A DNA stretch of 45,368 nt. Source: Planctomycetales bacterium (GTDB lineage: Bacteria; Planctomycetota; Planctomycetia; Isosphaerales; Isosphaeraceae). The DNA lies in assembly GCA_027451885.1 (NCBI GenBank), contig DAIDHX010000006.1:1-45368 (forward strand), read 5' to 3'. How positions within the stretch are numbered: position 1 is the stretch's first letter; each line of letters begins with the position of its first letter. The notes under the pieces are model-generated. The model worked only from the letters and a program-made list of their open reading frames with translations, made no database searches and had not been told where the DNA came from. Of this stretch, positions 4,463-21,197 are shown in pieces. A program made the translations under genes and the position numbers.

Positions 4463-6316
4463 ATGAATACATATCATCGTTTTGATTGCTTGATCGTGGG
4501 TGCTGGGGGCGCGGGTCTGATGGCCGCGCTCGAGGCGAGCCGGCGGGTGGGCACGGCGGTCGTGAGCAAGCTTTATCCCACGCGCTCGCACACGGGGGCA
4601 GCGCAGGGGGGTATCGCGGCGGCGCTTGCCAACCTGGAAGACGATTCGTGGGAAAACCACGCCTATGACACGATCAAGGGGGGGGACTTCCTGGTCGACC
4701 AGACGGCCGCGGAAATTCTGTGCCGCGAGGCCGTTGAGTGCATCTACGACCTTGAGCACATGGGTCTCCCCTTTGACCGCACCGTGGATGGCCGGATCTC
4801 GCAACGGCGGTTCGGGGGGCATACCAAGCCCAACCCCAAGTATGATCCGTCCGCGCCCGCTGGGACCGAGGCCGCCAAGCCCCGCATTCCCGTCATGCGA
4901 TCCTGCCACTCCGCGGACCGCACCGGGCACATGATTTTGCAGACGCTTTACCAGCAGTGTATCAAGCAGGGGGTGGCGTTCTTCGATGAATTTCACATGC
5001 TCGACCTCATTCTCGAGGACGGCGAGTGCAGGGGGATCGTTGCGATCGAGATCGCCACGGGTGCGCTGCATGTGTTTCATGCCAAGAGCGTACTGCTCGC
5101 GACCGGCGGCTTTGGGCGGATGTTCAAGGTTTCATCGAATGCCTACGCCTTGACCGGCGATGGACCCGCGATCGCCTATCGCCACGGCATGCCGCTCGAG
5201 GACATGGAGTTCTACCAGTTCCATCCCACGGGCATCTATCGCCTGGGAATCCTCCTGAGCGAGGCTTGCCGTGGCGACGGCGGGATCATGTTCAACGGCC
5301 AGGGCGAGCGGTTCATGGAGCGTTACGCCCCCAACCTGAAGGATCTGGCCAGCCGCGACGTTTGCTCGCGCTCGATTTACCAGGAGGTTCGCGCGGGGCG
5401 CGGGATCGGAGGCAAGGACTACGTCCATCTCGACATCCGTGCCGAGACCATGAACAAGTACAAGTCGAGCCCGCTCCATCCCGATCAGAACGTGGACAGC
5501 CACTGGGTTGAAAAGCGCCTGCCTGACATCATCGAATTCGCCCGCACGTACCTGGGCGTTGATCCGATCAAGGAGCCGATGCCGATCCAGCCGACCGCGC
5601 ACTATGCGATGGGAGGTTTGCCGACGGATCTCGATGGCCGGGTGCACCGCAACGCCCGTGATGTGGTGCCGGGCCTGTATTCGGCCGGTGAGAGCGCATG
5701 CCTTTCCGTTCATGGAGCGAACCGGTTGGGCACGAATAGCCTGGTTGATCTGGTGGTCTACGGTAGGCGCTCGGGACGGGCGATGGCGGACTACGCCAGC
5801 CGCGTGGAATTCCACTCGATTCCCGCACATCCCGAGGCGGCGGCGAAAGCCGCGATCGACGACCTGCTTGGCCGCCCGCGAACCGAGCCCTGGGCCAGGC
5901 TGCGGGACGAGATGCAGGCCACGATGATGGATCATTGCGGCGTCTTCCGCACCGAGGAAACACTTGTGAAGGCGCGGGACGACATTGCGAATCTGAAGCA
6001 GCGCTACCAGCGGCTTGGCGTGCAGGACAAGGGCTCGGTTTTCAATACTGGGTTGCTCGAGATTCTGGAGCTTGGCAACCTGCTCGACCTGGCCGAGGCG
6101 ACCGTTGCGTCCGCGCTCGCGCGCCGCGAAAGCCGCGGCGCACATTCGCGCGAGGATTTTCCCAATCGTGACGACAACGCCTTCTTCAAGCACTCGCTGG
6201 CTTTTGCGAACGGCCAGGAAGGCGCCCGCGTTGAGTACAAGGACGTCGACGTGATCCACGTCGAGAAAGACGGCGAACGGGTTCCGAAATATCCCCTGGA
6301 AGTGCGAAAATATTGA
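4463..6316 (+). CDS. sdhA: Succinate dehydrogenase flavoprotein subunit
   Basis: This 617-residue subunit oxidises succinate to fumarate with a covalently bound FAD. The N-terminus carries the dinucleotide-binding motif GAGGAG (about residues 13-18) and SHTGAAQGG, where His43 is the expected FAD attachment site. QFHPTGI, HYAMGG and [11 protein letters not shown] follow, the last being the substrate and capping region. The C-terminal domain ends with the usual VEYKDV and [10 protein letters not shown] type sequence. Length is normal for the family (about 580-650). A purine-rich GGCAGGG stands just upstream of the ATG. It lies in the sdhCDAB operon and works with SdhB at the cytoplasmic face. 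Confidence 0.97.
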
Positions 6317-6372
6317 TCGGTCGTGAGACACGCGGCGCACGGCCTCGACTCTTGCACAAGGGATCTCGATCG

Positions 6373-7119
6373 ATGGCGGATACCATGGCGGCGGATGCAG
6401 GCACGCGGCGGCTCACGGTGCGGATCAAGCGTTACGATCCGGAACAGGGGGGCGAGCCGCGCTGGCAGGAATTCCAGGTGGATGCCCATCCCATGGATCG
6501 CGTGCTCGACGTGCTGCTTTCCATCAAATGGAATCAGGACGAGGCGCTTGGTCTCAGGCGTTCCTGCGCGCACGGTGTGTGCGGCTCGGACGCGATGCGG
6601 ATCAACGGCAAGAACGGCCTGGCGTGCAAGTTGCTCGTGAACACGCTTCAAGGCGACGTTCTCACGGTCGAGCCGATCCTGGGCTTGCCTGTGATCAAGG
6701 ATCTGATCGTCGACATGAAGCCGTTTTTCGATCACTACAAGTCGGTGATGCCGTATCTGGTGAATGACGACCCGCCGCCGACGACCGAGCGGCTGCAGTC
6801 TCCCGAGGAACGCGCGCGCTTCGATGAGACCACCAAGTGCATCCTGTGCGCGTGCTGCACCACGGCCTGCCCGCCCTTCTGGGGCAATGAAAAGTATGTG
6901 GGGCCGGCGGCGATTGTGAATGCCCACCGTTTTATCTTTGACTCGCGCGACCAGGCTGCGGCGGAGCGGCTTGAAATCCTGAACGACGGCGAAGGCGTGT
7001 GGCGCTGCCGGACCGTTTTCAACTGCACAAGCGCATGCCCGCGGGATATCCACGTCACGAAGGCGATCCAGGAAGTCAAACACGCGATGCTCACGGGCAG
7101 CACGAGCCTGAACGATTGA
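6373..7119 (+). CDS. sdhB: Succinate dehydrogenase iron-sulfur subunit
   Basis: A 248-residue protein that passes electrons from the SdhA flavin to quinone. ATG at 6373 (MADTMAADAG) is preceded by AAGGGATC; a possible TTG further upstream overlaps the sdhA stop and is less likely. The [2Fe-2S] ligands are in CAHGVCGSD (Cys65, Cys70, Asp73) with Cys85. The C-terminal half holds CILCACCTTACP (Cys156, Cys159, Cys162, Cys166) and NCTSACP (Cys218, Cys222) with Cys212, giving the [4Fe-4S] and [3Fe-4S] clusters. All expected ligands are present. It closes the sdhCDAB operon. Confidence 0.96.
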   Translation: MADTMAADAGTRRLTVRIKRYDPEQGGEPRWQEFQVDAHPMDRVLDVLLSIKWNQDEALGLRRSCAHGVCGSDAMRINGKNGLACKLLVNTLQGDVLTVEPILGLPVIKDLIVDMKPFFDHYKSVMPYLVNDDPPPTTERLQSPEERARFDETTKCILCACCTTACPPFWGNEKYVGPAAIVNAHRFIFDSRDQAAAERLEILNDGEGVWRCRTVFNCTSACPRDIHVTKAIQEVKHAMLTGSTSLND

Positions 7120-7159
7120 CCGCGGGCGGCGTGTGTGCTCATCGAGGAGGCGATGCGCG

Positions 7160-8845
7160 ATGAGGATCCGGTACAGGGGATTGTTGTGGGCGTCGATCGC
7201 GTGCGGGCTGATCGCCGCCACGAGCATCGCGGCTCCAGTCCACCCCGCCAGGGCCCAGGAATCCAGGGGATCTGCCTCGCCTGCCGCGCTCGCCGGCCGC
7301 TTGCGCGAGGTCATGAAGTCCCCGGGCTTTGAGAATGCGCACTGGGGAATCCTCGTGGTCGACGCCAGGTCGGGTGAGACGCTCTTCGAGCAAGATCCGG
7401 ATCAGCTTTTCGCTCCCGCCTCGACCACCAAGCTTTTCAGTGTTGCGGCCGCGCTGGTGGAGTTCGGGCCGGACCATCGCTTCCGGACTCCGATCGTCCG
7501 CCGGGGGCTTCTCGACGACGATGGTTTGCTGCACGGCGATCTCATTCTGATCGCCAGCGGCGACCTCTGCATGGGCGGGCGCACCGGACCCAACGGCAGT
7601 CTTCTCTTTCAGGATGACGATCACACCTATGCCGGGGGCAATTATGACAGCAAGGTTGTTTCCAGCGATCCGCTTGCCGGGCTCGACCACCTTGCGCGTG
7701 AGGTGAAGGCCAGCGGAATCAAACGTGTTTCGGGCGACGTTCTCATCGACGACCGCCTTTTCAATCCAGAACCGACGACCGGCAGCGGGCCGAGGATCGC
7801 CTCGCCCATCACCATTAACGACAATGTCATCGACGTGCTCGTGAAGCCGGCCCAGAAGGAGGGCGAGGCGGCCTCGGTTTCGATTCATCCCCAAACGGGC
7901 TTCGTCGCGGTCGACGCCCAGGTGGAGACGGGCCCGAAAGATGCCCAGCCGAGGCTGAACGTGCTTTCGGCCGGTCCCAGGCGTTACGTGGTGCGCGGGC
8001 GGCTGCCGGTCGGGATGGATCCGGTCGTGAAGATCATTGAGATTGAAGATCCGTCCTCGTTCGCGCGTGCCTTGCTGATTGAGTCGCTACGGCGTCACGG
8101 AGTGGTTGTGGCAGCGTCGCCGCTCGGAGTGAATCGCCGCGCACTTCTGCCGGAGCGGAAGGCGACCGGCGAACTTGTCAAGTCTGCGGAGTACGTGTCG
8201 CCGCCGTTTCGCGAGAATGCTCGGGTCATTCTGAAGGTCAGCCACAACTTGCACGCCAGTACGCTGCCGTTACTGATCGCCGCGAAATACGGCGAGCGTA
8301 CCCTTGAGCAGGGGCTGCGGCGCGAGGGCCAAATCTTGCGGAAGCTGGGGATTGCTCCCGGCACTGTTGCGTTTGGCGGCGGCGCGGGGGGCTCCCGCGC
8401 GGACATGGTGTCGCCCAGGGCGGCCGTTACTCTGCTGCGGGCGATGGCCGCTCGACCTGAATACAGCGTCTACGAGGCTGCTCTGCCGATTCTTGGCCGC
8501 GATGGCACGCTCGCCAAGGCGGTTCCGAGCGACAGCCCAGCACGGGGCCACGCACATGCCAAGACAGGCACATATTTTGTTGAAAACACGCTAGATTCCA
8601 ACATCGTGCTCACCAGTAAGGCGCTTGCCGGCTACCTTGAAACGGCCTCCGGGCGCTCGCTGGTGGTTGCTGCTTTCATCAACAACGTCGTCCTGGACGC
8701 ACCTCGGCCGGATCGGACGATTTCACAGGCCACCGCGGCGGCGGGGCGCTTGCTCGGCAAGATTTGCGAGGTGCTTTACGAAGATGGGCCGAGTCGAGGC
8801 ACAGTCGCGCCCGCGAAGGGCAGCAGCGGGAGCGTGTCCCGCTAG
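7160..8845 (+). CDS. dacB: PBP4-type D-alanyl-D-alanine carboxypeptidase/endopeptidase
   Basis: A 561-residue penicillin-binding protein of peptidase family S13, which trims or cleaves peptidoglycan peptides in the periplasm. The start at 7160 (MRIRYRGLLW) follows GAGGAGG by 9 nt. A signal peptide is clear, with cleavage expected after PARAQ near residue 33. The three active-site motifs are present: STTK (Ser88-Lys91), SHN (Ser361) and KTG (Lys468). The large insert between the first two motifs is typical of this class. The gene follows sdhB by 40 bp on the same strand and could be co-transcribed. It supports a peptidoglycan wall in this organism. Confidence 0.92.
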   Translation: MRIRYRGLLWASIACGLIAATSIAAPVHPARAQESRGSASPAALAGRLREVMKSPGFENAHWGILVVDARSGETLFEQDPDQLFAPASTTKLFSVAAALVEFGPDHRFRTPIVRRGLLDDDGLLHGDLILIASGDLCMGGRTGPNGSLLFQDDDHTYAGGNYDSKVVSSDPLAGLDHLAREVKASGIKRVSGDVLIDDRLFNPEPTTGSGPRIASPITINDNVIDVLVKPAQKEGEAASVSIHPQTGFVAVDAQVETGPKDAQPRLNVLSAGPRRYVVRGRLPVGMDPVVKIIEIEDPSSFARALLIESLRRHGVVVAASPLGVNRRALLPERKATGELVKSAEYVSPPFRENARVILKVSHNLHASTLPLLIAAKYGERTLEQGLRREGQILRKLGIAPGTVAFGGGAGGSRADMVSPRAAVTLLRAMAARPEYSVYEAALPILGRDGTLAKAVPSDSPARGHAHAKTGTYFVENTLDSNIVLTSKALAGYLETASGRSLVVAAFINNVVLDAPRPDRTISQATAAAGRLLGKICEVLYEDGPSRGTVAPAKGSSGSVSR

Positions 8846-11786: not shown

Positions 11787-13712
11787 TCAATTTCCGCCGG
11801 GGCGTTCGATTGAGCCGAGATGTGTTGTTGTGGCGATCAGCACGTGCGGGCCTGGGGGCTGATTGGCGGGCGGATCGACGCGCTGGGCCTGGGTTTGGCG
11901 GGAGGGAGTCGTCAGCGCCTGGGTCAGGTCCTGGGGTACTCGACTCACATGGAGCTCGTGGGTTGGATAGGGCAGGACGATCTCCTCGCGTGAGAAACGA
12001 TCCTGAACGGCCTTGTACAGGCGATGCTTGGTCTTGCTCGAGAGTCCTGGCTCGGCGACGTAAACCGAGAGTGAGAAAACCAGGGCGAAGTCGCCGAATT
12101 CGTCGAGATGGGCGCCCGGCGCGGGATTTGAGAGCACATCGACATCGGCCTGGGCGATCTCGAGGAGCAGCTCGACGATGCGATCCGGGTCGTTGCCGTA
12201 GGCGACGCCGACCTTGAGCAACACGCGGACGATCTTGTCCTTGTGGGTCCAGTTCACCAGGTTTCCTGTGATGAATTCGCGATTGGGGACGATCATGCAC
12301 TGGTTGTCGGCGTTAATGATGGTGGTGGCGCGAATGTTGATGCGGTCGACCTTGCCTGAGGTGCCGCCGACGGTGACCACGTCGCCAATCCGAATGGGGC
12401 GCTCGAGCAAGAGAATAATGCCGCAGACGAAATTGGAAACAACCTCCTGGAGGCCGAATCCAAGTCCGACGCCGAGGGCGGCGAGAACGACGCCGATTTT
12501 GGCCATGTCGAGGTGGATGGCGCCCAGGGCGATGATGAGGGCGAGCCCGATCGCGAGATAACGGCACAGGGTGACGATTGCGAAACGGACGCCCGGATCG
12601 TCGGGCATGCGCCGAAACAGAGTTACTGAGAAGAACGTGTTCATGTAACGCCAGGCGGTGGCGCCCAGGAGAAGTACAATGACAGCGTGACACACGTTGC
12701 CGAGAGTGACGGGGGTTTGCTCGTCGATCCACCAGAGCGGCTGATCGAGCAGGAAGCGCGCGAGCGCAGCGTTGAGATCCCAGACCCACGCCACGGCCAG
12801 GAGAGCGAAGACGCCTGTCACGCCGGCCGCCAGCCGGTGCAGGCCGAGCGCGAGATCATCGAGCGCGTCATCCTCTTCGGTGCTCGAGTCGGTGGGGGTG
12901 ACGAGAACTTCCTGGCTTGACCAGGCGCCTCGCGTGCGTGTCGCGCCTCCGAATGCGACCGCGGTTGTAAGCGCCTTGGCCCACGATCGGCTTGGGCTGG
13001 TCCAGCGCCAGGCGTGTTCATCGATTGTGCGTTTGAGGGCGTGGTGCAAGCCCACGGCGAGCGCGAGTACGGCGGTGGTTTGAAAGCCGCCAATCGCCAG
13101 GCGCCGCGCGGTGAAGCTGTATCCCCGGATTTCGAGCACGGCCACGAATGCAATTCCCACAAGCACCACGCTCGCGACCAGCCTGCGCTTGCGCCCCAGC
13201 CAGGCAAGACCGCGCGCCAGGGTGGAATTGCGCTCGACCCCGGGCGCCGCCGCTGTCGAGCTGAGCCATTCAATCAGCGCGGAGTTCGGGCGCAGGAGTC
13301 GAACGCATGCACACCATACAAGAAGCTCATATGTCAAAATTAACATTCGGCCAAAAGTTGGCGCGGACACTGCGCGTTCCTCAGGCGCAAGCAACCCGTG
13401 ATCGATCAGATACACAGGCGCAACGAACAAAGCCGCGGCGGCGACGAGAAACCGGCCCGCCCGGCCGAACTGCCGCGCCACGCGCAGCGGCAGGTCGAAC
13501 TGGCTTACGAGCAGCCCAGAAGGCCGCGTTACGAGCCGAATGGTCTCGCTTGCAAATAGCGCGATCGCGAGCACCCAGCAAACCGCGGAGCCGAGCGCAC
13601 CGCAACTTCTGGGCCAGGGACCTGAGCGGAAAACAAAGGCCGCCAGCACCAGATAGAGCGGCCAGATCATCGCCGCCAGAATTCCAAGAAAAGCCGACTT
13701 CGCAGCTCGCAT
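11787..13712 (-). CDS. MscS-domain mechanosensitive channel, C-terminal half of an MscK-type channel
   Basis: A 641-residue membrane protein. I chose ATG at 13712 (MRAAKSAFLG), which follows GAGGAGGG by about 9 nt. Some eight or nine membrane helices precede the MscS core. The pore helix is AALGVGLGFGLQEVVSNF (about residues 400-417), followed by ERPIRIGDVVTVGG and PNREFITGNLVNW, the conserved beta-domain signatures. The C-terminus ends in a proline- and threonine-rich tail. MscS-type channels open on membrane tension to release solutes during hypo-osmotic shock. The large periplasmic coiled-coil part usual in MscK/MscM is encoded separately by the gene 73 bp upstream in another frame. Channel identity is secure; whether the two products assemble is inferred. 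Confidence 0.88.
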   Translation of the reverse strand: MRAAKSAFLGILAAMIWPLYLVLAAFVFRSGPWPRSCGALGSAVCWVLAIALFASETIRLVTRPSGLLVSQFDLPLRVARQFGRAGRFLVAAAALFVAPVYLIDHGLLAPEERAVSAPTFGRMLILTYELLVWCACVRLLRPNSALIEWLSSTAAAPGVERNSTLARGLAWLGRKRRLVASVVLVGIAFVAVLEIRGYSFTARRLAIGGFQTTAVLALAVGLHHALKRTIDEHAWRWTSPSRSWAKALTTAVAFGGATRTRGAWSSQEVLVTPTDSSTEEDDALDDLALGLHRLAAGVTGVFALLAVAWVWDLNAALARFLLDQPLWWIDEQTPVTLGNVCHAVIVLLLGATAWRYMNTFFSVTLFRRMPDDPGVRFAIVTLCRYLAIGLALIIALGAIHLDMAKIGVVLAALGVGLGFGLQEVVSNFVCGIILLLERPIRIGDVVTVGGTSGKVDRINIRATTIINADNQCMIVPNREFITGNLVNWTHKDKIVRVLLKVGVAYGNDPDRIVELLLEIAQADVDVLSNPAPGAHLDEFGDFALVFSLSVYVAEPGLSSKTKHRLYKAVQDRFSREEIVLPYPTHELHVSRVPQDLTQALTTPSRQTQAQRVDPPANQPPGPHVLIATTTHLGSIERPGGN

Positions 13713-13785
13713 GCTCGAACCGCCCTCCTCGCTTCTGGGATCGCGGACATCCCGCGTCTCATGATTTGAACAACCGGTGCGTTGT

Positions 13786-15738
13786 TCACACGCCGGTTTG
13801 CTGTCCAGGTTCACTGGGTTCGCCGTGGGGGAAGTACTGCACCACGATCGCTTGCTCGGAACGTGCGATGGCGAGCACGAGAAGTTTGCGCAGGCGCAGG
13901 AGTCCGAGCGGCAGCATGCCAAGCGCGAGCGCGGCGACCACGAATTCTCCGGACGGCCTTCCCCAAAGCTTGGGGTTCACGGCCTCGGCCGCGACTCCCA
14001 GAATGCCTGCCGCAACGCGCTCGGCGTCGCGCGCTAGCCTGGCCGTCACCCAGACGCCGATCGGCTCCTGGTCGCGCACCCAGAAGATGTGGGTGCGGAT
14101 AAAGCCGTCCTCGTCCTCGAGAACCCGCAGTCTGCGTGAGACCTGGGCCAGAGTTTGGTTGGCGCGGTCGGAGAGTTTCTCGAGAACCTGGCGTTCGCGC
14201 AGGAGCAGGGCTCGATGCTTTTCTTCGAGCTCGGCCCAAACGGCCTCACCCTCGGAACGCCGGGCCGAGGGGGGATGTTCGCGGGCGAAATCGAGCTCGA
14301 ACTGGTCGTGGAGCGAATCTTGCAGGAGCTCGAGTTCGACGGTTGAGAGCAGATCCTCGTAATACTGGACGTGCATCTCGGCGGTTGCGAGCTCGTTTTT
14401 CACGATGCGGTCGCGCTCGGGTCCGATCCGGCGGAAGTCGTTGTTGAGGCGGATGGCGTCGAGGCGGCTCACGCGGCCGTCGTCGAGGAGCTCGCGGATG
14501 TGAGCGAAATCGGCCTCGGCCCGATCGGCCAGGTCGCGCTGTTCATGCAGAGAAGGGGAGGGCGAAGTTGCAAGCGACTGCTCATGGCGTACCACCACCG
14601 CTTCGAGCGCCAGGAGCTCCGCGGTGCGTCTGGCGCGGAAGCGTGCGATCGGATCGCTTGAGCGCCGAGCCACCGCGTCCTGATCTTGCGCGGCACGCTC
14701 GAGCGCGCGGCGACGATCCTCCGCCGCAAAGCGGTATCGCTTGCGCGCTTGATCCAGTGTGAGCTGGGAGAGCTTGAGCTTTGCCTGATCCCGCGCGATC
14801 TCCCAGTCGCGGATATCGACGCGCTTGTTCTCGTTCGCAATCTCGGCCTCGAGCGCGGCGAGCCGAATCCGCTCCAACCGCGCTTCCCATTCCGCGTTCT
14901 TGAACCGCTCCATCGCGAGCCGCTGTTCCAGCTTGCTGGGGGACGACGCCTGTGCATCCTTGAGCTCCTTGCGCTTGGCATCAAGCGCAACACATCGCTG
15001 ATAGATCTTGTCTCGCTCGCGCTGTCTTGCCTCCCTGCGCGTATCCAGCTTGGACTGATCCCCGGCCTCGCCATCGAGCCGATTGTGGATGTCCTTGATC
15101 TCCGCCTGGATCGCGTCCATCATCTCCTTCATTTCCAGAGTGCTGGAGGATGACTCGTCTCGCGATGCGTCGCGAAAGCGCGGCGGCAAAAGTCCATCGG
15201 GATCGGTCTTCGCAAGCTCGAGCCGGCGATTGATCTCGCCGAGCTCCGCCTTCACTGCCGCGCGCTCGGCCGCGGGCGTTGTTGCGGGATTTCGCTGCGT
15301 AGTGAGATCCTTCTGTGCCTGGTCCACAAGATCGAGCAGTCTCAGTCGCTCCTTGAGCAGATCGCCAAGCGCCTTGGCGAACGCCGCGTCTCGCCCCTTT
15401 TCCCGCGCTGAAACCGCCGCGGTTGCAGACTCGCCCCTCGTCGATACCGGCGAGGATGCCTTCTCGAGCCCTCCCAGCAAGGCCCGGGCTTCATCTCGCG
15501 CTGCCTGCGGCTCGATTCCCATGTCAACCGCGGGCGCTGTTTCCTCGGGAGACGAAGGCGAATTCGCGCTCCTGACGCCAGGCGCGATTCGAGCTGCGGC
15601 TTTGGGTTGCTGCGCAAAGACAGGTTGCTGTGCAAAGACAGGCAAGTCGCCGAAAACAACCGCCGCCGAACACACAACGCACACATGCAACACGCTCACG
15701 CGTGAGAGCCGGTTGCCTGTGCCTTCCGTGGCAAGCAT
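13786..15738 (-). CDS. Periplasmic coiled-coil protein, N-terminal half of an MscK-type channel
   Basis: A 650-residue protein. ATG at 15738 was chosen because GGAGGGA precedes it by 8 nt and a signal peptide follows (ending near VFAQQ); earlier starts would bury that leader. Most of the protein (about 100-560) is charged, heptad-like coiled coil rich in E, R, K, A and L, as in the periplasmic domain of large MscS channels. IFWVRDQEPIG near residue 565 resembles the segment that precedes the first helix in that family. One membrane helix (GEFVVAALALGMLPLGLL) lies close to the C-terminus, and the protein stops after about 35 more residues. The channel part follows as a separate gene in a different frame. 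Confidence 0.78.
   Translation of the reverse strand: MLATEGTGNRLSRVSVLHVCVVCSAAVVFGDLPVFAQQPVFAQQPKAAARIAPGVRSANSPSSPEETAPAVDMGIEPQAARDEARALLGGLEKASSPVSTRGESATAAVSAREKGRDAAFAKALGDLLKERLRLLDLVDQAQKDLTTQRNPATTPAAERAAVKAELGEINRRLELAKTDPDGLLPPRFRDASRDESSSSTLEMKEMMDAIQAEIKDIHNRLDGEAGDQSKLDTRREARQRERDKIYQRCVALDAKRKELKDAQASSPSKLEQRLAMERFKNAEWEARLERIRLAALEAEIANENKRVDIRDWEIARDQAKLKLSQLTLDQARKRYRFAAEDRRRALERAAQDQDAVARRSSDPIARFRARRTAELLALEAVVVRHEQSLATSPSPSLHEQRDLADRAEADFAHIRELLDDGRVSRLDAIRLNNDFRRIGPERDRIVKNELATAEMHVQYYEDLLSTVELELLQDSLHDQFELDFAREHPPSARRSEGEAVWAELEEKHRALLLRERQVLEKLSDRANQTLAQVSRRLRVLEDEDGFIRTHIFWVRDQEPIGVWVTARLARDAERVAAGILGVAAEAVNPKLWGRPSGEFVVAALALGMLPLGLLRLRKLLVLAIARSEQAIVVQYFPHGEPSEPGQQTGV
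15605..15640. repeat. 18-bp tandem duplication inside a signal peptide region
   Basis: Two near-identical 18-bp units (15605-15622 and 15623-15640, one mismatch seen) encode VFAQQP twice in the leader of the coiled-coil channel protein. Each copy contains a possible signal-peptidase site after VFA. Replication slippage is the simplest explanation. Confidence 0.85.
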
Positions 15739-16318
15739 GGCGTGATCCCTCCAGGACGTGCTGAGCTTCTTCCAGGCTCGGGGTCGTAAGGTAGCCCCCG
15801 CGTCCAACCCCGGCAAGCCGAGATTCCCACATGCATTCCTAACCATTTTGGTACAAGGCGGATTCATCGTTCTGAATCGCCAGAACCCTCGGGGCGACTG
15901 CCGGAGTGCTCATCGGGAATTGTTGGAACATCATGAAGGGCAAATGGTTATAGATCGAAAACGGGACTGGCGAAGAGCTGGCCTGGGCAGGAGTGAGGGG
16001 CTTGACCATGCTCCGTTTGGCTCTATGATGAATGCGTCGAGTCAAGATCGTTTTGGTTCGAGATTCTGACGCTTCAGTCATCGCGACTTACGTGTCGCGG
16101 GTTTGGCGATCGCAGAATTTTCTGTCCGCGTCCTGGAACTCCGGCCTCTCGCACCCTCCTTGAAGTGCGTCAGTAATTTCGGATCGTGTTCATAATGCCA
16201 GTGTGGTTCGAGCTCGGGTGTTCCGAGCGGCGGGTTCACGGGGTTCGTCGAGTCGAGAGAATCGGAGTCCAGGCGAGATGGCGGACACGATTTGTTCGAG
16301 CGGGGTGCGAGGATGAGA
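15739..16318. other. Divergent intergenic region between the channel genes and the cobB-like/cyd operon
   Basis: About 580 bp separate two divergent transcription units, so promoters for both are expected here. The stretch is less GC-rich in places (for example around 15835-15960). I see no open frame with a credible start, no RNA gene and no strong inverted repeat. Confidence 0.5.
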
Positions 16319-17722
16319 ATGCTCCCGCGACTCGGCCTGGCGTCGCCGGCATCTGGCCCGGAACCATCGCTTGCCAGCCTTGCGCTGCTTGCCGGTTTGA
16401 CGGCTGCGGGGCGGCGAGTGCAGCATTTTCGGTCGCGGGCGTGCCCGCTTGCGGCTGAGGTTGTGGGTCAGGCGACGGGCCTGCCGGGCCGTCATCTGGA
16501 TGCGTGGCTGATGACGGAGCGGTTTTGCCGGGGGATCTTTGCCCGGGCGGCCGCGAGCTGCGATCTGGCGATTGTCGAGGGATCGCTCGAATCTCCCACA
16601 GTGACGACCTCGCTGCACTGCGATCGCCCGGGCGACCTGGAACCGATTGCGGATTTCCTCGACCTGCCGCTGGTGGCGATTGTCTCTTGCCGGGGCCGCA
16701 AGGCGGAATCGTTCCATCTGCCGCGTTTGCCCGAAGGGGTTGAGGCGATCCTGCTCGACGAGGTTGAGGGGGACGAGCAGGCGGTGGCTCTCAAGCGGCT
16801 GGTTCGACTGGCGACGGGGGTTCCGGTCATCGGGGCTGTGGAATCGCTTCCCGATGCGCGCGAGGCGCTGCAGGATCTGCGTCATGAGCAGCTCTTTCCC
16901 GAAGGATGGCTCGATCGTCTGGCGAAGAGCTTCCTGAAACACGCGGATCTGGCTGCGATCGAGGCTCTGGCGGCCAGCCGTCCTCCACTTGAGCTTCCGG
17001 CCCCCCCCGCGCTTGCCGCGGGTTGCGGCCGTCAGGGTCGAATTCGGGTGGCGTTCGCCAGGGACGAGATCTTTGGCCGCTACTTCCCCGATACCCTGGA
17101 CGCACTCGAGGAGCTGGGAGCGCAGCTTGTCGAGTTTTCTCCCTTGCGCGATGAGTCCTTGCCGGGCGATGTGGATCTCGTCCTGATCGGTTGCGGCTGC
17201 CCGGATCAGGAGATCGCAGCGCTTTCCTCGAACCTGAGCATGATCGGCGCGCTGCGCGTGCATGTGTGTCGCGGCCGGCGGATCTATGCCGAAGGCGGCG
17301 GCGCGGCTTACCTGGCTCGTACGGTCGGCGTGCGCGGACGCACCTACCCCTGTGCGGGGATTCTGCCGTTTCACGCCGAGCTCGAGGATCTTCCCGAGCC
17401 TCCCGTCCCCGTTGTTCGCAGCCTGCTCCACGACTGCTGGCTCGGCGACAAGGGCACAACGGTGCGCGGCTATCGCAGCGGCCGCTGGCGGATCTCGCCC
17501 AGCACAAGCGGTCTTGATTGCCCCGCCTGCCACGGCACCCTCTCGGCCGAGGGCGATTGGTTCTTTCACCATCACGCGGTGGGCAGCCTCATGCACCTTT
17601 ACCTGCCCGCGCTGCCAGACGTGGCCTCCGCCTTCGCAGGCCCGCATTCGCCGTCGCTCAGGCGGCCGCTGCCAAGCAGAATCCGAGGCGCCGATGCAAC
17701 GCCCCGGCCCCACGACGATTGA
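16319..17722 (+). CDS. CobB/CbiA-like protein lacking the P-loop and the glutaminase cysteine
   Basis: A 467-residue protein with the layout of cobyrinate a,c-diamide synthase. The N-terminal domain keeps family landmarks such as GLPGRHLDAWLM and CDLAIVEGSLESP. The C-terminal domain matches the class I glutamine amidotransferase part (IRVAFARDEIFGRYFPDTLD, then FSPLRDE). However, the ATP-binding GxGKT motif is missing at the N-terminus, and the nucleophile position reads YAEGGGAAYL, with Gly326 where the family has Cys. A CPACH motif (Cys401-His405) near the C-terminus has the form of a c-type heme site but may be chance or a metal site. ATG at 16319 follows GAGGA by 5 nt; 16313 is the alternative. 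cydA starts 36 bp downstream, suggesting an operon and a role other than cobalamin synthesis. Confidence 0.75.
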   Translation: MLPRLGLASPASGPEPSLASLALLAGLTAAGRRVQHFRSRACPLAAEVVGQATGLPGRHLDAWLMTERFCRGIFARAAASCDLAIVEGSLESPTVTTSLHCDRPGDLEPIADFLDLPLVAIVSCRGRKAESFHLPRLPEGVEAILLDEVEGDEQAVALKRLVRLATGVPVIGAVESLPDAREALQDLRHEQLFPEGWLDRLAKSFLKHADLAAIEALAASRPPLELPAPPALAAGCGRQGRIRVAFARDEIFGRYFPDTLDALEELGAQLVEFSPLRDESLPGDVDLVLIGCGCPDQEIAALSSNLSMIGALRVHVCRGRRIYAEGGGAAYLARTVGVRGRTYPCAGILPFHAELEDLPEPPVPVVRSLLHDCWLGDKGTTVRGYRSGRWRISPSTSGLDCPACHGTLSAEGDWFFHHHAVGSLMHLYLPALPDVASAFAGPHSPSLRRPLPSRIRGADATPRPHDD

Positions 17723-17758
17723 CCCAGCCTCGAACCCATTCGATCAGGTTCAATCACC

Positions 17759-19087
17759 ATGGATCAGGTTTTCTGGCATCGAATTCAGTTCATAATTACA
17801 GTAACATATCATTATTTGTTCCCGCAGCTCACCATGGGTCTCGCCCTGCTCATCGTGGTGATGAAGGGGCTTTCGCTCAAGAACCGGGACGCGCTTTACA
17901 ACGAGTCCGCGCGATTCTGGGCGCGCATCTTTGGGCTCAATTTCGCCATGGGGGTTGTGACTGGCATTCCGCTGGAGTTCCAGTTTGGCACCAACTGGTC
18001 GCGGTTTTCCGACTATGCGGGGGATGTGATCGGCCAGACGCTTGCCATGGAGGGGGTCTTTGCGTTCTTTCTTGAATCCGCGTTTCTCGGTCTTTTTCTC
18101 TATGGAGAGAGGAAGCTAAGCGCGCGTGGGCATTTCGCGGCTGCGTTTGCGCTGTTCCTGGGCTCCTGGATTTCGGGCTACTTCATTATTGCAACCAATG
18201 CATTTATGCAGCATCCGGTGGGATACACGCTGGGGGAGGATGGCCGGCTTCATCTGGCGGATTTCGCCGCGTTTGTTCTGAATCCCTGGGCGCTTTGGCA
18301 ATATGCTCACAACATGGCGGCCTCGGTGCTCACCGCGGGGTTCGTGGTGGCCGCGGTGGGGGCGTACTGGTCGCTCATGGGCAAGCATGCCCGGCATGCG
18401 CGCGTGAATTTGCGGCTTGGGATGATCACGGCGGCGGTCTCCAGCGTTTTGCTGGTGTTTCCCACCGGGGACGAGCACGGCAAAATGGTCGCGCGGCATC
18501 AACCCGCGACCCTGGCCGCGATGGAAGGGGTGTTTCAGGGTGGGCCGTTTGCCGAGCTTGCGATCATCGGCCAGCCCGACGTCGCGGCGCGGAAGCTGGA
18601 AAACCCGATCGTTCTCCCCGGCATGCTCAGCTTTCTGGCCTATGGCACGTTTGGGAGCGTGGTGCAGGGGATCGATGATTTTCCCGAAGCCGATCGCCCC
18701 GGGAACATCGAACTTTTGTACTACGCGTATCACATCATGGCCGGCCTGGGCACGCTTTTCATGCTCACGGCGGCGGTGGGCGGCTTCTTGCTCTGGAAGG
18801 GCAGGCTCGAGCGCACGCGCTGGATGCTCTGGATCTTGCTGCTCGCGTTTCCTTTTCCGTACATCGCCACGACCGCCGGCTGGTGGACGGCGGAGCTTGG
18901 CCGCCAGCCCTGGATCGTTTACGGGCTCCTGCGAACCGAGGCAGGCGGCTCCAGCAGCGTGCACCCGGGCAACGTCGTCTTCTCGATCCTCGGGTTCTCC
19001 GGTCTCTATATTTTGCTTTCATTTTTATTCGTTGATCACTTGAGACGACAGATCGTCGCCGGTCCCGAGCCGTCTGGATCGCATTAG
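17759..19087 (+). CDS. cydA: Cytochrome bd ubiquinol oxidase subunit I
   Basis: This 442-residue membrane subunit oxidises quinol and carries the hemes of the bd-type terminal oxidase. Expected ligands are visible: His18 (TYHYLFPQLT), His184 (QYAHNMAASV) and Met327 (HIMAGLG). Glu98 and Glu106 (MEGVFAFFLES) match the conserved proton-path acids, and the GRQPW motif lies near residue 380. The protein is about 80 residues shorter than the E. coli subunit, consistent with the short Q-loop form often called CIO. cydB follows after 9 bp. The bd oxidase usually supports growth at low oxygen or under inhibitors of heme-copper oxidases. Confidence 0.95.
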   Translation: MDQVFWHRIQFIITVTYHYLFPQLTMGLALLIVVMKGLSLKNRDALYNESARFWARIFGLNFAMGVVTGIPLEFQFGTNWSRFSDYAGDVIGQTLAMEGVFAFFLESAFLGLFLYGERKLSARGHFAAAFALFLGSWISGYFIIATNAFMQHPVGYTLGEDGRLHLADFAAFVLNPWALWQYAHNMAASVLTAGFVVAAVGAYWSLMGKHARHARVNLRLGMITAAVSSVLLVFPTGDEHGKMVARHQPATLAAMEGVFQGGPFAELAIIGQPDVAARKLENPIVLPGMLSFLAYGTFGSVVQGIDDFPEADRPGNIELLYYAYHIMAGLGTLFMLTAAVGGFLLWKGRLERTRWMLWILLLAFPFPYIATTAGWWTAELGRQPWIVYGLLRTEAGGSSSVHPGNVVFSILGFSGLYILLSFLFVDHLRRQIVAGPEPSGSH

Positions 19088-19096
19088 GATTCATCG

Positions 19097-20143
19097 ATGG
19101 AAGCACTTTGGTTTGCGATCGCGTCGCTGATGCTGGCTGCGTACGCGATTCTGGACGGTTTTGATTTTGGCGCAGGGGTGCTGCACCGTGTTGTCGCGCG
19201 CACGGATGAGGAGCGCAAGGTTGTGCTCGCGGCGATTGGTCCGGTGTGGGACGGCAACGAGGTCTGGCTCATTGCGGCTGGCGGCGTGCTGTTCATGGCA
19301 TTTCCGCGGGCGTATTCGGCGGCGTTTAGCGGGTTTTACATGCCGCTCATGATGGTGCTCTGGCTGCTGATTCTGCGTGGGATCTCGATTGAGTTTCGCC
19401 TGCATGCGGATAACCCGATTGGGCGTGAGCTCTGGGACAGTGTGTTTTCGCTTGCCTCGGCGTTGCTTGCGATTGTGCTGGGCGCGGCGATCGGCAATGT
19501 GGCCCGGGGCGTGCCGGTCGACGCGAATGGAGAGTTCGTTGCGCCCTTGTTCACCAATTTTCTGGCGAGCGGCCGATGCGGCGTGCTTGACTGGTACACG
19601 GTGCTGGTGGGACTGTTTGCGCTCATCTTGCTAGCCGCGCATGGCGCACTCTATCTGGCGTGGAAGACAGCGGGTCCTGTCCACGATCGGGCCTGGCGGC
19701 TTGCGGGAGTTCTCTGGCGTGTCGTCGTCCCTTTGTGGCTTGCCGCGACGGCCGCCACATCCTGGGTTCAGTGGGAGATTTTCGCGAATCTGATCGCCCG
19801 GCCGTGGTCCTGGTTGCTCGTGGCGGTGATGGTTGCGGGGCTTGTGGGAGTGGTCCAGTTCATGAGGCAGGGGCGTGAGCTGGCGGCGTTTTTGTCGTCC
19901 TGCGGGTTCATGCTGGGGGTCCTGGGCGCGACGATGGCGGGAAACTACCCCTACTGGCTGCGATCGACGCTCGACCCAGCGTACGGGCTCACGGCGGCGG
20001 GCACGGCGGCAAGCGCGCACGGACTCAGGCTTGCGCTGGCGTGGTGGATCCCGGGCATCCTGCTTGCCGTGGGGTATTTTTGCTATCTCTTCCGCTCGAT
20101 GCGCGGCAAGGTCAACCAGGAAATCCCCGCGCAGAGGGTTTGA
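19097..20143 (+). CDS. cydB: Cytochrome bd ubiquinol oxidase subunit II
   Basis: A 348-residue, eight- to nine-helix subunit that pairs with CydA. The start MEALWFAIASLMLAAYAILD followed by GFDFGAGVLH is diagnostic, as are GPVWDGNEVWLI, FPRAYSAAFSGFYMPLM and RGISIEFR. Near the C-terminus AGNYPYWLRSTL also fits. Length is slightly below that of E. coli (379). It is co-transcribed with cydA, and its stop lies 31 bp from the stop of the converging HEAT/TPR gene. No cydX or cydCD gene is seen nearby. Confidence 0.95.
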   Translation: MEALWFAIASLMLAAYAILDGFDFGAGVLHRVVARTDEERKVVLAAIGPVWDGNEVWLIAAGGVLFMAFPRAYSAAFSGFYMPLMMVLWLLILRGISIEFRLHADNPIGRELWDSVFSLASALLAIVLGAAIGNVARGVPVDANGEFVAPLFTNFLASGRCGVLDWYTVLVGLFALILLAAHGALYLAWKTAGPVHDRAWRLAGVLWRVVVPLWLAATAATSWVQWEIFANLIARPWSWLLVAVMVAGLVGVVQFMRQGRELAAFLSSCGFMLGVLGATMAGNYPYWLRSTLDPAYGLTAAGTAASAHGLRLALAWWIPGILLAVGYFCYLFRSMRGKVNQEIPAQRV

Positions 20144-20174: not shown

Positions 20175-20837
20175 TTAAGGCTCGATGTCTGCTTCGAGCG
20201 CCTTGACGGATTCGCGCAGGGTCTCGGAATAGGGCTGGAGCTTGACGGCCAGGCGCAGGGTGTCGAGGGCCTCGCGTGGGCGATTCAGCCCGAGCTGGCA
20301 GCGGGCCAGGCCCGAGAGTGCGCCAAAGTGCACCGGGTTGCGCTTGACGGTCTCACGGCAGTCGCGAGCGCTTTCGGCGAGCCGGCCTTGAAGGTAGTAG
20401 GCGATGGCGCGCTGGTTGTATGCCTCCGCGAAATCGGGCGCCTGAGCGATCAACCTGGTTGCCAGGCCGATCGCATCATCGAGCCGCCCAGCGCCGATCA
20501 TTTCTCTGACCCCTTCGAGCGTGGCGTTGTGCTCGGGAGTATCCGCGCGGAACCAGACGGCCCAGAGCGCTTCTTCGGCCATTTCGCGGACGGTGGGGTC
20601 CTGGTCGCGGAGCGCCTTGCCGAGCATGGAGTTCGCGGTTTCAAATCGCCCCTCGAGACCAAGGCCAAGCACTGCGGCCCTGCGTGCGGCGGGATCGGGC
20701 GAGTCGCTCAGGATTCGTTCGAGGGTGCCTGCGTTGTAACGCGCCTGCAAGCGGCCGCGAAACGCTTCGAGATCGCGGTCGGCGAGAAACATCCTGTAGT
20801 AGTCGACCAGCAGCATCCCGCTGTTCAAAGCACCCAT
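20175..20837 (-). CDS. HEAT- and TPR-repeat protein
   Basis: A 220-residue soluble protein. I chose ATG at 20837 (MGALNSGMLLVDYYRMFLAD), with GGAGGGTAA 6 nt upstream; the frame is open further upstream but that part looks like untranslated, arginine-rich sequence. Residues about 35-100 form a HEAT-like segment (ARRAAVLGLGLEGRFE, then DPTVREMAEEALW). Residues about 115-215 form TPR units with typical spacing (AGRLDDAIGLATRLIAQAPD, GRLAESARDCRETVKRNP, NRPREALDTLRLAVKLQP). Such repeats act as protein-protein scaffolds; no catalytic motif is present. No partner can be deduced from context. Confidence 0.78.
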   Translation of the reverse strand: MGALNSGMLLVDYYRMFLADRDLEAFRGRLQARYNAGTLERILSDSPDPAARRAAVLGLGLEGRFETANSMLGKALRDQDPTVREMAEEALWAVWFRADTPEHNATLEGVREMIGAGRLDDAIGLATRLIAQAPDFAEAYNQRAIAYYLQGRLAESARDCRETVKRNPVHFGALSGLARCQLGLNRPREALDTLRLAVKLQPYSETLRESVKALEADIEP

Positions 20838-21197
20838 GATCTTACCCTCCGAGCCTGCTCGCGACCCGTTGGGCTCCCGGGGTCCCGCCGCTCCTGGCCC
20901 AGCCAGGACGAGACTCACCAGCAACCCGCAAGACGCTGCGCGAAGGAGACGAACTGACCGCGAAACACCGGTTGGCGCGTTCCAGAGCGCGGACCGTGCA
21001 AACCGGAGTCGACCCTTCACGGTGCACCGACTCAAGATTCCGAGTCGCAACCCGCAATACATGATTCGAGTCGCTTGCCCGCAAGTGACGCCCAAAGTCG
21101 GCGAGACGATGCGAGTTTGTCTACGTTTTGAACGATCCGAGGAATCCTGCGGCGTGTGTAACCGAAGACCGCGGCGTGTCTCGTACCAGGGTGAAGT
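20838..21197. other. Gap between birA and the HEAT/TPR gene
   Basis: About 360 bp without a convincing gene. The frame of the downstream HEAT/TPR gene is open across most of it but encodes basic, domain-free sequence. I see no clear hairpin-plus-T terminator for the birA end. Confidence 0.4.

Follow-up and report, generated by a model that had tools for sequence, protein, structure and literature searches.

A putative pseudo-amidotransferase clade derived from CobB in Planctomycetota, one member of which lies beside a cydAB insertion

We find that the CobB/CbiA-like gene preceding cydA in a planctomycete genome belongs to a clade in which the residues of the ancestral ATP site have been replaced throughout and those of the glutaminase site in nearly every member. 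Our preferred reading, to which we assign a probability of about 0.55, is that this is a clade of CobB-derived pseudo-amidotransferases whose members would work by binding rather than by amidation. The adjoining cydAB genes are a lineage-specific insertion. The gene was analyzed within the window, a stretch of 45,368 nucleotides from a Planctomycetales bacterium whose genome assembly (6.2 Mb) is 98% complete, and its homologs were followed through the window's own family, its class and the phylum.

The protein and its two former active sites

The window protein, which we call pseudo-CobB, is read from an open frame starting at 16319, with an in-frame TTG upstream at 16292, and comprises the following parts:

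16319 to 17722, plus strand: pseudo-CobB, a CobB/CbiA-like two-domain protein of 467 amino acids (open reading frame; NF002204; PF07685; AlphaFold2)
16319 to 17020, plus strand: N-terminal domain, about residues 1 to 234, counterpart of the ATP-binding synthase domain, in which the P-loop and the Asp motif have been replaced (aligned to true planctomycete CobBs)
17036 to 17650, plus strand: C-terminal class I glutaminase-like domain, about residues 240 to 444 (VIA-align Z 18 to GatD; residue counts)

An earlier note, made from the DNA sequence alone, had described a CobB-like two-domain protein, and this description holds. The NCBIfam model NF002204 (CobB) matches residues 4 to 428 (E 2.5e-42), with a score of 145 bits that falls below the curated cut-off of 254 bits, and the AlphaFold2 model is full-length, confident and divided into two domains (pLDDT 86.6, pTM 0.85). 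In Pfam the window protein matches GATase_3 (PF07685) alone, at 44.6 bits against a cut-off of 27 bits. GATase_3 is matched by 30 of 30 aligned clade members, and none of these 30 has a match to the CbiA nucleotide-binding domain, which is recognized in the two true planctomycete CobBs tested. Sequence (PF07685) and predicted class I glutaminase fold together place the protein in the CobB/CobQ-like GATase_3 superfamily.

A sequence search of solved structures, run with the protein and with a profile, returned no match, and a literature search on the clade found no publication. The C-terminal domain of the model does match solved class I glutaminases (Z up to 18), the best being GatD of MurT/GatD (Z 18.2 over 196 residues, 3.2 A). 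GatD is related to the glutaminase domain of CobB/CobQ, and its Cys94 and His189 form a catalytic dyad, alanine mutants of both having been assayed (PMC5871853). Whereas GatD is a separate subunit with both residues, pseudo-CobB has Gly for the Cys and carries a fused CobB-type N-terminal domain.

Set against CobB/CbiA, the cobyrinate a,c-diamide synthase, pseudo-CobB has the same two-domain layout, aligns over its full length and retains Gln35, Asp61, Glu87, Asp249, Ser274-Pro275, Glu325, Gly328, Arg383 and His426. Unlike CobB/CbiA, it scores below the family cut-off, has lost the P-loop, GPDxID and MGLFDG motifs, and carries Gly326 for Cys, Tyr385 for His and Cys292 for Gly; the P-loop GKT and the glutaminase Cys in ECGG, both marks of the CobB family, are missing. 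The model for CfbB, the Ni-sirohydrochlorin a,c-diamide synthase, also matches the window protein (E 1e-33), but with 117 bits it stays far short of its cut-off of 560. DsrN, which acts in siroheme amidation, is, like CfbB, a CobB-related amidotransferase working on another tetrapyrrole. CfbB and DsrN are by description active amidotransferases, in contrast to the pseudo-CobB clade, which is without both catalytic sites.

The earlier note had read the P-loop as absent and Gly326 as standing in place of the glutaminase Cys. The window protein indeed has EPS at the GKT position and Gly326 within YAEGGGAAYL, and both states recur among the 53 clade members whose residues and surroundings we inspected. 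The P-loop Lys is missing from all 53, its position being mostly Pro, and is kept by every true CobB covering the site; Gly326 is found in 51 of the 53. At these frequencies the states seen in the window are not products of chance or assembly error. The clade has lost the Asp motifs of its ATP domain as well, and ATP-site positions conserved in true CobBs vary within it, an indication that the protein has ceased to use ATP.

In the alignment the old ATP site is marked by Cys42, His59 and Glu87, and the C-terminal pocket by Cys292, Glu325, Gly326, Tyr385 and His426. Cys292 replaces an otherwise invariant Gly in 51/53 members (Ala in L040 and Asp in L122 are the exceptions), all 53 have Tyr385 where true CobBs have His, 50 retain His426, and the full set of Cys42, His59, Glu87, Cys292, Gly326, Tyr385 and His426 occurs in 40. 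L117 (genome G158) and L121 (genome G187), both from a single other family, keep the glutaminase Cys (AECSG and AECGG) with the P-loop absent and Cys292 present. Since they are placed apart in the tree, the Cys would have been lost more than once or regained, the P-loop loss being common to the whole clade, and the two may represent intermediates or regains. By these residue counts the ATP site is lost throughout and the C-terminal pocket is rebuilt with clade-specific residues, which are held under strong purifying selection.

The window protein also contains CPACH at residues 401 to 405, which the earlier note had compared to a c-type heme site. The motif is there, and a heme role is not borne out: a CxxCH occurs in just five own-family members (the window protein, its two congeners and two others) and is otherwise unconserved among orthologs, and the predicted N-terminus opens directly in a Rossmann-like strand. 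We reject a heme c site on this basis.

Descent, selection and the B12 pathway

Orthologs of pseudo-CobB are present in both congeners and in nearly the whole of the window's own family, the carriers amounting to 57 of 248 class genomes: 39 of the 45 own-family genomes and 18 that are spread over other families. One genus of the own family (g6; G007, G024, G033, G165) is without the gene in all four sampled genomes. Among 294 genomes sampled across the phylum, the best match outside the class scores 244 bits, which by score alone resembles the true CobBs, as against about 325 bits or more for undivided matches to clade members. By these scores the clade was found to be confined to the window's own class among sampled Planctomycetota.

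A tree of the 53 clade members and 11 true CobBs, the latter defined by a P-loop and ECGG, splits the two groups with 100/100 support, and NF002204 scores run from 99 to 172 bits in the clade and from 291 to 523 bits in true CobBs. The tree shows the clade to be monophyletic with respect to the planctomycete CobBs sampled, and its split argues against the clade having arisen by recent decay of a local CobB. The loss of both catalytic sites is what a decaying CobB pseudogene would display, but full-length open frames persist in more than 10 planctomycete families, dN/dS between close ortholog pairs is 0.04-0.26 and clade-specific residues have become fixed. We give decay virtually no credence: such purifying selection refutes it and indicates that the altered protein is functional.

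In the window genome, at its 98% completeness, we found neither a further CobB nor any CobQ or CobS, and so no sign of the later steps of the B12 pathway. These absences, together with the lost residues, lead us to infer that ATP-dependent amidation of cobyrinate is absent, in keeping with the earlier note's view of a repurposed CobB homolog that should not amidate cobyrinate. The protein might instead act as regulatory partner to a true CobB present in that cell, or to B12 synthesis there. Eight of the 57 carriers do have a true CobB above the curated cut-off, and the two genes co-occur with an odds ratio of 5 (p 0.005), an association confounded by family. The remaining 49 have none, and we consider this partnership very improbable and reject it. 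With most carriers devoid of a true CobB and the window genome devoid of CobB, CobQ and CobS, the window protein would seem neither to make B12 nor to regulate a partner CobB.

Neighboring genes and the cydAB insertion

The surroundings of the gene in the window are as follows:

11787 to 15867, minus strand: divergent pair of an MscS-type mechanosensitive channel and a protein without a Pfam match, the most frequent upstream neighbor in the own family
17759 to 19087, plus strand: cydA, cytochrome bd oxidase subunit I, a lineage-specific neighbor outside the conserved unit (PF01654, E 5.7e-144)
19097 to 20143, plus strand: cydB, cytochrome bd oxidase subunit II, a lineage-specific neighbor (PF02322, E 3e-81)
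20175 to 21095, minus strand: TPR/HEAT-repeat protein at the far edge of the cydAB insertion, directly 3' of pseudo-CobB in relatives without cydAB

The earlier note had placed the gene 36 bp before cydA on the same strand, and had proposed from this that the protein assembles, regulates or supplies a cofactor to the bd oxidase. The position is correct: the stop of pseudo-CobB is separated from cydA by a 36-bp gap, and the two genes may well be co-transcribed in this organism, which in itself says nothing about function. The proposal fares differently, as the window copy is the only one of the 53 clade loci inspected, most covered for about 6-7 kb in either direction and some stopping at contig ends, to have cydA or cydB nearby. 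In eight relatives the midpoints of pseudo-CobB and the TPR gene lie 1.07-1.16 kb apart, as against 3.6 kb in the window, where cydAB stands between them, and at 20 cydAB loci from 19 other genomes we sought pseudo-CobB and found no copy. The cydAB pair beside pseudo-CobB is a lineage-specific insertion and gives no clue to function.

Gene presence and absence agree with this synteny. We did not find cydA in 27 of the 57 carrier genomes, which include both congeners (89% complete, each tentative alone) and G014, G021 and G022, assembled in one to five contigs. Over the whole class the two genes do co-occur more often than expected (odds ratio 3.2, p 3e-4). The own family, however, carries this signal, and within it the association is not significant (p = 0.16); outside it, cydA is found in 2 of 18 carriers versus 47 of 185 non-carriers, again without a significant association. 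Homologs are scattered without a link to cydAB, the pattern that the earlier note had named as speaking against its own proposal, and neither the conserved linkage nor the co-occurrence by which a bd oxidase accessory protein would be recognized is seen. Such a role, rejected on synteny, presence and absence and the cydAB loci of other genomes, has in our estimate scarcely any likelihood.

The nearest relatives of the window CydA are about 70% identical to it and scattered over several families. The own family holds two clearly different cydAB types (window 17759-20143; L130-L149), with about 65-71% versus about 31-39% identity to the window CydA.

Frequent neighbors in the own family are the divergent mscS-type pair, sdh and dacB upstream, and a TPR-birA-nadC arrangement downstream; in other families they are degP, rnc, pdxJ and dapA (these four, birA and nadC being named by reading the sequences, without a profile search). 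Two upstream arrangements were noted (window 6002-8845; L038, L074, L075, L076, L078, L129): in several own-family members pseudo-CobB comes directly after dacB (encoding an S13 D-Ala-D-Ala carboxypeptidase) or after the sdh operon, in the same orientation, and elsewhere a divergent mscS-type pair stands between. At five loci of other families (L110, L112, L120, L123, L124) a gene for a DegP/HtrA-like protease lies 5' of pseudo-CobB with rnc further upstream, and pdxJ and dapA follow downstream in all of these except L120. We found no functional theme shared by the neighbors of the own and other families, and because the neighbors differ in this way genome context gives no function.

A function in the cell wall might be suggested by analogy, since GatD, the best fold match, amidates peptidoglycan (PMC5871853) and dacB is the immediate upstream gene, in the same orientation, at five loci and lies within 9.1 kb at 16. 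Against this, other families showed no dacB in the vicinity of pseudo-CobB, the GatD match reflects the common glutaminase fold, and the full-length sequence is closest to CobB. We regard a cell-wall role as improbable.

Binding or a new active site

On our preferred reading of the clade as pseudo-amidotransferases, the protein would no longer transfer ammonia to a tetrapyrrole with ATP, and the former glutaminase pocket, with a CobB-specific segment at about residues 247-282, would still bind a small ligand. The protein would then act through this binding, as a sensor, a carrier or a regulatory subunit. If one guesses from ancestry alone, a tetrapyrrole-like ligand comes first. The Cys-keeping members L117 and L121 and the family-dependent neighbors weigh against this explanation, and the non-catalytic status is itself putative, as the fixed Cys292, in the oxyanion-strand motif beside the former nucleophile, might have taken on a catalytic role of its own.

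The corresponding alternative is an ATP-independent enzyme, in which the Cys would have moved from the nucleophile elbow (position 326) to the oxyanion-strand motif (position 292) and would catalyze, with His426, a hydrolase or transferase reaction. The oxyanion residue of class I glutaminases sits on the strand adjoining the nucleophile elbow (PMC5871853), and the near-fixation of Cys292 in place of an invariant Gly and the retention of His426 are consistent with such a shift. However, Cys292 is missing from two members and His426 from three, and the neighbors suggest no reaction. We hold this possibility tentatively, as less likely than a binding or regulatory pseudo-amidotransferase, and view with more doubt still its specific form, in which the CobB pocket has become an ATP-free active site built on Cys292 and His426 whose substrate is possibly a tetrapyrrole.

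Our findings bear on how such genes are read in planctomycete genomes. Their close resemblance to CobB puts members of the clade at risk of being annotated as cobyrinate a,c-diamide synthase, and their hosts would then be credited falsely with a step of B12 synthesis. A misleading lead toward the bd oxidase is now removed. The clade clearly exemplifies a two-site enzyme whose ATP site was lost throughout and whose second pocket was rebuilt and thereafter kept under strong selection, with two members keeping the old Cys.
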